Below the pieces are notes generated by a model. The model was not told the DNA's origin, searched no databases, and saw only the letters and a list, made by a program, of their open reading frames with translations. From an uncultured Planctomycetia bacterium (GTDB lineage: Bacteria; Planctomycetota; Phycisphaerae; FEN-1346; JAACEH01): a stretch of DNA of 43,586 nt. Positions 12,054 to 43,172 of the stretch are shown piece after piece; the first letter of the stretch is position 1; each line of letters begins with the position of its first letter. The stretch spans positions 1-43,586 of the forward strand of contig CAIYVX010000046.1 of NCBI GenBank assembly GCA_903929765.1. Direction: 5' to 3'. The translations under genes and the position numbers were made by a program.

Positions 12054-12152
12054 GGGTGCCACGCCTTGTCCCCCGGCTGTACGGGGGCAGGGTGTGCGAA
12101 GAAGAACACACTTTGGTCCCGACTTCGTCGGGCCTTCAAAGTGTGGCACCCG
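12054..12152. repeat. Palindromic repeat element, intergenic copy
   Basis: GGGTGCCAC (12054-12062) and GTGGCACCC (12142-12150) are inverted ends. Inside are two hairpins: CCCCCG..CGGGGG near 12071-12088, and CACACTTTG..CAAAGTGTG enclosing CCCGAC-TTC-GTCGGG (about 12108-12145). The second half (12101-12152) is closely related to a segment inside recQ at 36756-36807. It fills most of the gap between the HTH-receiver and kinase genes. Confidence 0.75.
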
Positions 12153-33920: not shown

Positions 33921-33997
33921 GCGCCCATAGCTCAACTGGATAGAGCGTCGGCCTACGAAGCCGAAGGTTACAGGTTCGACTCCTGTTGGGCGTACCA
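33921..33997 (+). tRNA. tRNA-Arg (anticodon ACG)
   Basis: Full cloverleaf: acceptor GCGCCCA/TGGGCGT, D arm GCTC..GAGC, anticodon stem TCGGC/GCCGA with loop CTACGAA (anticodon ACG), T arm ACAGG-TTCGACT-CCTGT, and encoded CCA. A34 of this tRNA is the substrate of TadA, whose gene starts 23 bp downstream. Confidence 0.95.
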
Positions 33998-34491: not shown

Positions 34492-34503
34492 TTTCTTCTT
34501 CTG

Positions 34504-34588
34504 GTGTGGCACAGCCGCCTTCGGCTGTGCTGCTTTTTACTTCACACCCGAGGCGGGTGTGCCACATTCCCAGCCGGGGGCGGCTGGG
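34504..34588. repeat. Array of three hairpins between tadA and recQ
   Basis: CACAGCCG-cctt-CGGCTGTG (34510-34529), CACACCCG-agg-CGGGTGTG (34543-34561) and CCCAGCC-ggggcg-like loop-GGCTGGG (34569-34588). The leading GTGTGGCAC and the internal GTGCCACA echo the ends of the elements at 12054 and 24066. Confidence 0.7.
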
Positions 34589-34631: not shown

Positions 34632-37298
34632 ATGAGCGAGAACCTCAATACCGACCCGCCCCTGCCCCCCGCCGTCCTGGAAACGCTCCAACGCGCCTTC
34701 GGTCACACCGCTTTTCGCGGCGGCCAGGAATCGGCAGTTCGTTCCATCCTCGCCGGCCGCAGCGTCCTCGCGGTCATGCCCACCGGCAGCGGCAAGTCCC
34801 TTCTCTACCAGTTGCCCGCCCTCCTTTCCGACGGTCTGACCCTGGTCGTCTCGCCCCTGATCGCCCTGATGAAAGACCAGGTGGACGAATTGACGCGCCG
34901 CAAAATCCCGGCCACTTTCATCAACTCCAGCCTCGGCCTCGCCGAACAGCGGGAACGCATCGAGCAATGTCGTCGCGGTCAGATTCGCCTGCTCTACGTC
35001 GCCCCCGAGCGGTTCCGCAGCGAGAGTTTCGTGGCCATGATCCGCCAGGCCCGCATCAGCCGCATGGCCGTCGACGAGGCCCACTGCATCAGCGAATGGG
35101 GCCACGATTTCCGCCCCGATTACCGCCGCCTCAAGGACTTCCGCCAGGCCATGGGCCGGCCGCCCGTCACCGCCCTCACGGCCACGGCCACGCCGCGCGT
35201 CCAGAAGGACATCGTCGAGTCGCTCGGCCTCTCTCCCGCCGAGATTGACGTTCACGTCCACGGTTTCGACCGTCCCAACCTGGCCCTCCGTGTGGTCGAG
35301 GTCGGAAACGACAAAGACAAGAACATCTGGGTCTGCCGCTACGTCCGCGAGCACGCCGGTTGCGGCATCATTTACGTCGGCACGCGGCAGGTCGCCGACG
35401 ATCTGGCCGAAGCCGTCCGGGCCGTCGAGCCGCGCACCGTCGTCTACCACGCCGGCCTCGACCCCGACCAGCGCGTCCGGGCCCAGGAAGAATTTCTCGG
35501 CGGCCGCGCCCGCCTGGCCGTCGCCACGATGGCCTTCGGCATGGGCATCGACAAGCCCGACATCCGCTTCGTCCTGCACTACCATTACCCGGCCTCGGTC
35601 GAACAGTATTACCAGGAGATCGGCCGCGCCGGCCGCGACGGCCAGCCTTCCGAATGCGTTCTGCTCTACTCCTCCTCCGACCGACGTCTCCGCGAATTTT
35701 TCATCGATCTCAGTTACCCCTCGCGCGAACAGGTCCGCAACGTCTACCAGACGCTCACGCAACTTCCTGCCAATCCGATTCTCCTGACCTACCGCGAAAT
35801 CGCCGACCAGTGCGAGGGGCGCCTCAAGGACGGCCAGGTCGGCGCCTCCATCCGCCTCCTCGACGCCGCCGGTGTCACCCGGGTTTTGGCCGAAGACCCG
35901 CCCGCCTGGATTACCATCGACCGGCCCGGCGCCGAGATTCTCCCCAAGCTGCGCGGGCAGAACCAGCGGCCCGTCTTCGAGGCCCTGGCCTCGGCCTTCG
36001 ACCTCGAAACGCCCGGCCGTTACAGTGTGGAACTGTGGCCGCTCGGCCGCGCCGCCGGACTGTCGGACGATCAGGTCCGCCGGGCTTTGGCGGCGCTCGA
36101 CGAGGCCGGCCACCTCCGCTACGAACCTCCGCCGCGCGGCCGGGGCATCGAAAAACTCGTCGATCCCGCGCCGCCCTTTGACCGCGTCGCCATCGATTGG
36201 GCGCGGCACGACAGCCGCCGGCAGATCGAGGAAGAGAAACTCGATGGTATCGAAAACTACATCACCAGCGACGCCTGCCGCCGGTCGACGATTCTCCGCT
36301 ATTTTGGCGAAGAGCCGCGCGACGGCTGCGGCACCTGCGACCGTTGTCGCCAGCCGGCCGCCGCATCACGCTCCGGCGGCGACATCCTGGACCGACGCCC
36401 CGAAATCGCCCGCCCGGTTCTCGTCTGCGTCAGCCACTTGCGTTTTCCTCTTGGCGTCGGCCGCGTCGCCCAGATCGTCACCGGTTCCCGTGATTCCGAC
36501 CTGCTGAGTTGGAAGCTCGACCGCAATCCGTCCTACGCCACCGTCTCCGCCCGCCAGGACGCCGTCAAACCGGTGATCGAACAACTCATCAAGTCTGGCT
36601 ACCTGAAGCGCGATAACGAAGATCCGCGCCGGCCCGTAGTCGCCCTGACCAAACGCGGTCAGGCGGCCGTTGAAAAAATCGAGGCAGCGGGTCTGATGGA
36701 GTCGGGGCGGAAGAAGAAGCAGGGGGTTGAAGTTCAACGTTCCAGGGGGGACAAAGAAACACACACTTCGGCCCCGGCTGTGCCGGGTCTTCATAGTGTG
36801 GCACCCGGAAAGAATAGTGAATCGCCCGGAACAGTACCTGCTCAAACTTCCGCCCGCCCCGGCGCCGGACCCTATCTCGAAGACCTGCTCCGCAACCTCC
36901 TCGTCGCCAAGCCCGACGACGCCAAGCCGATGATCGAGGCCCTGCGGCTCTTCAATCCCCGCCACGTCGCGGCGTGCCTCGAATCTCCCGTTCTGATCGG
37001 TTCGCCGCAGACCCGGGCCAGGGCCTTCTGGATTCTCGGCGAAGTCTGCGGACTGCATGGCCTGAATCTTATCGTCCGCGCCGCCGCCGACCAGGAAGTC
37101 AACGTCCGCCGCCTGGCCGCCTCGGCCCTGGGCAAAGCCGTCGCCGAACAATGTGCCGCCATGCTCCTCTTGAGGCGCGAGGCGGCGGCGGTTCGCCAGG
37201 TGCTTCAGACCCTCGTGGCCGACACCAATCCGCAGGTCAGCCAGTACGCCCGGAAATCTCTGTCCATCCTGCCCGACGATCCAGGTTTGCCGGAGTAA
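34632..37298 (+). CDS. recQ: RecQ-family DNA helicase with C-terminal HEAT-like extension
   Basis: 888 residues from ATG 34632. Helicase core: Walker A PTGSGKS (50-56), DEAH (148-151), TATATPRV, and the QEIGRAGRDG arginine-finger motif. The RQC zinc site follows (CRRSTILRYFGE ... CGTCDRC), then a winged-helix part to about residue 690. Residues about 709-726 are encoded by a palindromic repeat (36756-36807) inside a polar linker. The last 140 residues look like HEAT-type helical repeats (ARAFWILGEVCGL, VRRLAASALGKA) in place of the usual HRDC domain. No ribosome site is clear. Confidence 0.88.
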   Translation: MSENLNTDPPLPPAVLETLQRAFGHTAFRGGQESAVRSILAGRSVLAVMPTGSGKSLLYQLPALLSDGLTLVVSPLIALMKDQVDELTRRKIPATFINSSLGLAEQRERIEQCRRGQIRLLYVAPERFRSESFVAMIRQARISRMAVDEAHCISEWGHDFRPDYRRLKDFRQAMGRPPVTALTATATPRVQKDIVESLGLSPAEIDVHVHGFDRPNLALRVVEVGNDKDKNIWVCRYVREHAGCGIIYVGTRQVADDLAEAVRAVEPRTVVYHAGLDPDQRVRAQEEFLGGRARLAVATMAFGMGIDKPDIRFVLHYHYPASVEQYYQEIGRAGRDGQPSECVLLYSSSDRRLREFFIDLSYPSREQVRNVYQTLTQLPANPILLTYREIADQCEGRLKDGQVGASIRLLDAAGVTRVLAEDPPAWITIDRPGAEILPKLRGQNQRPVFEALASAFDLETPGRYSVELWPLGRAAGLSDDQVRRALAALDEAGHLRYEPPPRGRGIEKLVDPAPPFDRVAIDWARHDSRRQIEEEKLDGIENYITSDACRRSTILRYFGEEPRDGCGTCDRCRQPAAASRSGGDILDRRPEIARPVLVCVSHLRFPLGVGRVAQIVTGSRDSDLLSWKLDRNPSYATVSARQDAVKPVIEQLIKSGYLKRDNEDPRRPVVALTKRGQAAVEKIEAAGLMESGRKKKQGVEVQRSRGDKETHTSAPAVPGLHSVAPGKNSESPGTVPAQTSARPGAGPYLEDLLRNLLVAKPDDAKPMIEALRLFNPRHVAACLESPVLIGSPQTRARAFWILGEVCGLHGLNLIVRAAADQEVNVRRLAASALGKAVAEQCAAMLLLRREAAAVRQVLQTLVADTNPQVSQYARKSLSILPDDPGLPE
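36756..36807. repeat. Palindromic repeat element, copy inside recQ
   Basis: It aligns with 12101-12152 along its whole length: CACACTTCGG, CCCCGGC-tgt-GCCGGG, TCTTCATAGTGTGGCACCCG. The inner stem pair A-T of the intergenic copy is G-C here, keeping the pairing. It is read as codons in the recQ linker without breaking the frame. Confidence 0.75.
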
Positions 37299-43082: not shown

Positions 43083-43172
43083 GGAGAGGTGCCAGAGCGG
43101 TCGAATGGGCCGGTTTCGAAAACCGGTGAGCCCATTAGGGTTCCGGGGGTTCGAATCCCTCCCTCTCCGCCA
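43083..43172 (+). tRNA. tRNA-Ser (anticodon CGA)
   Basis: 90 nt with encoded CCA. Acceptor GGAGAGG/CCTCTCC, anticodon stem CCGGT/ACCGG around TTCGAAA (anticodon CGA), a long variable arm as expected for serine tRNA, and T arm GGGGG-TTCGAAT-CCCTC-like. It reads UCG. An inverted repeat and an IS256 fragment follow downstream, so its 3' end may be an integration neighbourhood. Confidence 0.93.

Follow-up and report, generated by a model that had tools for sequence, protein, structure and literature searches.

Known repetitive extragenic palindromes (REPs) carry GTAG or GTGG at the foot of the hairpin (PMC8266576, PMC6006769). Intragenic cases have been described for GTAG and CGTC REPs, often in DNA-repair genes and sometimes two to a gene, in hosts that include PVC bacteria (Di Nocera et al. 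2013, PMC3733652). The best-known palindromes within genes are the Rickettsia palindromic elements (RPEs), of about 150 bp (reviewed in PMC10969869). Class 3 of the TnpA_Y1 transposases, which occurs chiefly in Planctomycetes, Acidobacteria and Proteobacteria, is linked to palindromes with the foot CnGA (PMC6006769). Since both intragenic REPs and Rickettsia RPEs have been published, the phenomenon itself is known; what is new here is a tag family, its association with RAYT genes across genomes, and the set of proteins that host it.

We analyzed a 43,586-nucleotide contig from an uncultured Planctomycetia bacterium (the window), in which a palindrome lies within a gene for a recQ-family helicase (Table 1). 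The palindrome is a REP, and its family is marked by the foot tag GGGTGC(C). Altogether, it is very probable that a REP of this family, spread by a RAYT, entered a linker of recQ in frame, was tolerated there and subsequently decayed.

Table 1. Coordinates of the features discussed, in positions of the window
Feature	Position	Strand	Basis
REP unit, type A, inside recQ; 60 bp = 20 codons, DKETHTSAPAVPGLHSVAPG	36750..36809	+	unit edges over 87 copies, sequence, frame
Imperfect hairpin; outer stem CACACTTCG/CATAGTGTG (two pairs broken), inner stem CCCGGC/GCCGGG	36762..36800	+	fold and pair counts
Foot tag GGGTGCC of the hairpin, conserved beside related RAYT genes	36800..36806	-	tag comparison at RAYT loci
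recQ-family helicase gene	34632..37298	+	Pfam, NCBIfam, alignment, structure model
Inverted REP doublet, REPIN-like, intergenic	12054..12151	.	sequence, fold, copy list

The REP family and its hairpin

In the 3.83-Mb genome the 11-mer GTGTGGCACCC has 174 exact matches, against 0 for a reversed control, and AGTGTGGCACCC with at most one mismatch has 197, against 8. The family comprises 176 distinct copies, retrieved from the genome with their surroundings; a search for strict palindromes at a set spacing finds 2 copies only and grossly undercounts it. Further copies, on whose existence the original prediction had staked itself, are thus present in large numbers. The hairpin core of 39 nt falls within the 20-65 nt of a short, high-copy REP palindrome. 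The copies fall into two subtypes, to which the outer arms CACACTTTG/CAAAGTGTG and the end GTGTGGCACCC are common. Type A (89 copies) reads CACACTTTGG-CCCCGGC-loop-GCCGGGG-CTT-CAAAGTGTG and has an asymmetric internal loop. Conservation of the flanks over 87 copies delimits a type-A unit of about 60 bp, GACAAAGAA...CACCCGGA; the majority of such units are open in five of the six reading frames. Type B (87 copies) reads CACACYTTGCCC... and frequently forms inverted doublets, numerous pairs being spaced by about 89-100 bp. On the strand where the tag lies 5' of the hairpin, the tag is GGGTGC(C) and the foot GTGC. The family has this tag in place of the GT[AG]G tetranucleotide that precedes the hairpin foot in the GTAG superfamily, and so falls outside it; nor does it have the tag of CGTC REPs. 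Rfam yielded two tRNAs and nothing else in the window, so the element is not a described RNA family; the tRNA genes lie at 33921-33994 and 43083-43169.

The original prediction had aligned a 52-bp stretch of recQ with an intergenic element at 12101-12152. This match is real and far above chance, and two of its boundaries change. The conserved unit in recQ is longer than 52 bp, with the matching REP core at 36762-36806, and the intergenic element is not a unit on its own but the right half of an inverted doublet. The latter joins a type-B half (about 12054-12096) to a type-A half (core 12107-12151), folds at -30.9 kcal/mol (z = -5.0) and, as two inverted REPs with a short spacer, has the make-up of a REPIN; the recQ copy is a singleton.

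Comparison of 31 distinct type-A copies, pair by pair, provides strong support for the hairpin. Bases pair in 95.8% of cells, and double compensatory changes occupy 16 cells, compared with 4.2 +/- 1.6 in shuffled alignments, none of which (0/500) reached 16. The covariation score of 0.128 was likewise equaled in 0/500 shuffles, and most of the signal was lost when partners were slid by one column. The inner stem is CCCGAC/GTCGGG at 12.1 kb and CCCGGC/GCCGGG in recQ. The earlier reading of this difference as a paired change that keeps the structure is borne out: it is one of the compensations seen across the family, in alignment columns 16-23, where 20 rows have G-C and seven have A-U. Covariation over copies, which it had proposed to model, exceeds that of the shuffles. 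Folded alone, the 12.1-kb copy has z = -3.6. The recQ copy folds only weakly as DNA (z = -1.6), and among 87 type-A copies it is the only one in which two pairs of the outer stem are broken.

In-frame copies in recQ and other genes

The RecQ protein is laid out as DEAD, Helicase_C, RecQ_Zn_bind and RQC domains, the linker that bears the REP, and a HEAT-like helical C-terminal domain. In a structure model of the C-terminal 410 residues, the REP peptide falls within residues 218-266, a long segment with pLDDT below 50 (about 30), and the site is apparently an unstructured linker. This agrees with the original view that the segment is translated as part of a polar linker, in frame and over 20 codons. 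In most of the RecQ-HEAT homologues examined, the RQC part is succeeded by a second winged-helix domain, then by a Pro/Ala-rich linker and the HEAT-like part; the RecQ of the window lacks this second winged helix. Comparison with relatives, which the prediction had named as a check, gave no sign of a linker ancestral to all of them: the REP segment is missing from all full-length RecQ-HEAT homologues examined (L042-L044, L071-L076, L079 and L080). These homologues mostly carry the second winged helix at that place, so that a clean empty site was not found among them, and in a genome of the same family (G001) a close orthologue of recQ is missing (best match 48%). Immediately 5' of the likely recQ start, at about 34500-34560, the open frame VAQPPSAVLLFTSHPRR suggests a further palindromic repeat of translated appearance. 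Among named records, the nearest come from metagenome-assembled genomes of Planctomycetota, and the host is called a planctomycete on this ground.

Copies within other genes were called by a codon-usage test on either side of each copy, together with inspection and domain searches. Including recQ, there are about 16 in-frame sites in 15 genes. The hosts are recQ, smc, rsmH, the gene for the CCA tRNA nucleotidyltransferase (a tandem pair), mfd, a U32 peptidase gene (two sites), and genes for a radical SAM/B12 protein, an MqnE-MqnC fusion, an FtsX-like permease, two Kdo/WaaP-like kinases, a ParB-like protein, two membrane proteins and one uncharacterized protein; the ParB-like, membrane and uncharacterized proteins have no Pfam match and are named by inspection only. 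In G001, nine of these sites, in eight genes whose proteins are 48-73% identical, are empty: those in SMC, RsmH, Mfd, the CCA-adding enzyme, the U32 peptidase (both sites), the radical SAM/B12 protein, the FtsX-like permease and one membrane protein. At these nine sites the copies are therefore RPE-like, inserted in frame and absent from the relative's genes. One such site reads GFLPLDSL-RSGVPHFVPAGFIAGQSVSSDGTPCPQTAGGQGVAPTFEP-LDVSQYPGVVARA here and GFLPLDTL-RRPAQGPGAA-SFPGVVARA in G001. The sites in the ParB-like protein, the kinases, the MqnE-MqnC fusion, the second membrane protein and the uncharacterized protein were called from the codon model and domain matches.

The original prediction held that a mobile or replicating structured element had apparently entered a coding gene. 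The empty sites, together with a RAYT gene that lies between family members (see below), support mobility and entry into genes, whereas for recQ we infer the event, because most relatives carry a second winged helix and not a short empty linker. Its further proposal, that the insert was tolerated because the frame was kept, gives a likely reason, but one that acts jointly with the apparently unstructured site.

Several hosts merit separate mention. The Pfam SMC_hinge match spends 151 residues on 116 positions, and the SMC insert is missing from other relatives besides G001. The hinge loop that holds a REPIN here has unrelated inserts in the smc genes of G005 (L296) and G002 (L297), and may be a permissive site. 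The Mfd insert (L021:949-3012) spans 58 residues, compared with 5 in G001, and seems to combine two repeat families, a palindrome coding for GQSPVPT and a type-A REP. In the gene for the CCA-adding enzyme (L257:1050-2621) the REP-containing insert is tandemly duplicated, which gives about 77 extra residues relative to G001.

The family is mostly intergenic. Copies fell within genes in 20/167 cases (12%), compared with 437/835 random positions (52%) in the identical test, a depletion which indicates that most insertions into genes were lost or never fixed. The same codon test placed none of the 30 copies in G001 within genes, and a few of 16 sampled copies in G051 are possible in-gene sites; the in-gene load is thus not uniform. 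A separate palindrome family of G051, CACACCTGCAAACGCCGCAGGTGTGGCACCC (L363-L377), shares the GTGTGGCACCC end, and some of its copies are possibly in frame in genes.

RAYT genes and the tag

The genome has eight Y1_Tnp matches. One RAYT, at L038, has 178 aa and the motifs HFH and YIHNNP, and scores 100.3 bits against NCBIfam NF047646 (cut-off 80). Its gene lies between inverted type-B copies at L038:1210 (-) and 1906 (+), the arrangement of a REPtron. The flanking copies are type B, not type A as in recQ; the outer arms and tag are common to both types, and we infer that this RAYT mobilizes the two alike. The RAYT genes closest to it, those of G053 (57% identity), G030 and G051, lie between palindromes that have different stems but the same TGGCACCC/GGGTGCCA end, as does a RAYT on C17 of G001. 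RAYT loci in the other relatives mostly have no palindrome tagged in this way. From this distribution, the family was most likely spread by a RAYT-type HuH transposase. Our search of open-licence papers found nothing on the tag GGGTGCC together with a REP and a transposase.

RAYT genes also occur within coding genes. The valS reading frame (L036:337-3216, equivalent to G000 C82:71100-73979) holds a whole RAYT of about 190 aa in frame, with its HuH and Tyr motifs kept, directly before the conserved ITVATTRPETMLGD segment; it is framed by a different translated palindrome family, CACGGGC...GCCCGTG. The same arrangement is found at the same position in G051 and G033 (loci L380, L384), making three genera in all, and their RAYT parts are 54-57% identical to the copy here. 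ValRS of other relatives lacks the RAYT, and among open-licence papers we found nothing on a transposase inside a planctomycete valyl-tRNA synthetase. In G055 (L293) a RAYT lies in frame within a long DNA methylase-like reading frame and is framed by the translated repeat VVQASSLPS..AGKMPAPQ. It is conceivable, if doubtful, that the RAYT and REPs of this lineage have adapted to coding genes, with in-frame REP linkers and whole RAYTs in essential genes as transposase-bearing, non-splicing counterparts of inteins.

Proposed history and relation to described systems

We envision a scenario in which a RAYT-type HuH transposase acts on the single-stranded hairpin and so spreads the REP as singletons and inverted doublets. 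One copy would have landed in the flexible segment that joins the RQC domain of RecQ to the HEAT-like domain. The unit measures 60 bp and has no stop in the recQ frame; for this reason it would be translated, as a polar linker containing Pro and Gly, and tolerated. Drift of this copy could then have cost it the two pairs of its outer stem.

We considered and rejected the idea that the recQ segment is a low-complexity linker ancestral to this RecQ subfamily, its likeness to the repeat being convergent. That it sits between domains, in a Pro/Ala-rich linker that differs freely from one homologue to the next, fits this idea, but its closest relatives in the genome, two other copies, are just three edits away over a 45-bp match, its conserved flanks and tag agree with the REP family, and none of the homologues examined has it; we regard convergence as extremely improbable. 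A RAYT-driven spread must also be weighed against gene conversion, template switching at hairpins or a transposase since lost. The mobility of the family is read from sequence, no RAYT directly frames type A, and CGTC REPs have no dedicated transposase (PMC3733652), all of which leave room for such routes. Against them stand the family-framed RAYT in this genome and the co-occurrence of tag and RAYT in others, and we consider spread by these routes unlikely.

A separate question is whether in-gene copies were retained for a function, with an RNA or DNA hairpin regulating the gene or the peptide serving as a selected linker. Six of the seven type-A in-gene sites are read in one frame, as HTLAPxxPGLQSVAPG, though most copies could be read through in five of the six frames. 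This bias is equally explained by selection against harmful peptides, and the decay of the recQ hairpin, the depletion of copies in genes and the functionally unrelated hosts all argue against a retained function, which appears quite unlikely. We favor the model in which a RAYT-spread REP was tolerated in recQ.

The tag is unreported in the literature searched and ties this REP family to a RAYT clade over several genomes. With its dense collection of in-frame copies in conserved proteins, nine of them at sites that are empty in a relative, the genome extends the short list of mobile DNA tolerated in working proteins, and annotation pipelines should expect such inserted peptides. How a RAYT reads its tag, and how foreign peptides come to be accommodated in constrained proteins such as SMC, RsmH and the CCA-adding enzyme, become testable questions.

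Like GTAG and CGTC REPs, the elements described here are short, tagged, high-copy palindromes that occur as singletons and inverted dimers, frame a RAYT and lie in frame in a minority of cases; unlike them, they have the tag GGGTGC(C) rather than GTAG/GTGG or CGTC, their stems differ, and the hosts set against theirs are smc, rsmH, the CCA-adding enzyme gene, mfd and the MqnE-MqnC fusion (PMC3733652). With REPIN/TnpA_REP systems they share inverted doublets, tags at the outer ends and an HuH/Y1 transposase, as well as the bulged stem of group 2 REPs, but they differ in the tag and in that our knowledge of them comes entirely from genome sequence (PMC3116915, PMC8266576). TnpA_Y1 class 3 and subclass 2.6 similarly include RAYT-like genes flanked by palindromes without a GTAG foot, although here the tag reads GGGTGC and the Y---NP motif of the RAYT, YIHNNP, is that of class 2 (PMC6006769). 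As with RPEs, palindromes lie in frame in unrelated housekeeping genes and are translated into short peptides; in contrast to the RPEs of about 150 bp, the units here are about 60 bp, or doublets of about 98 bp, and come with a candidate RAYT (PMC10969869).
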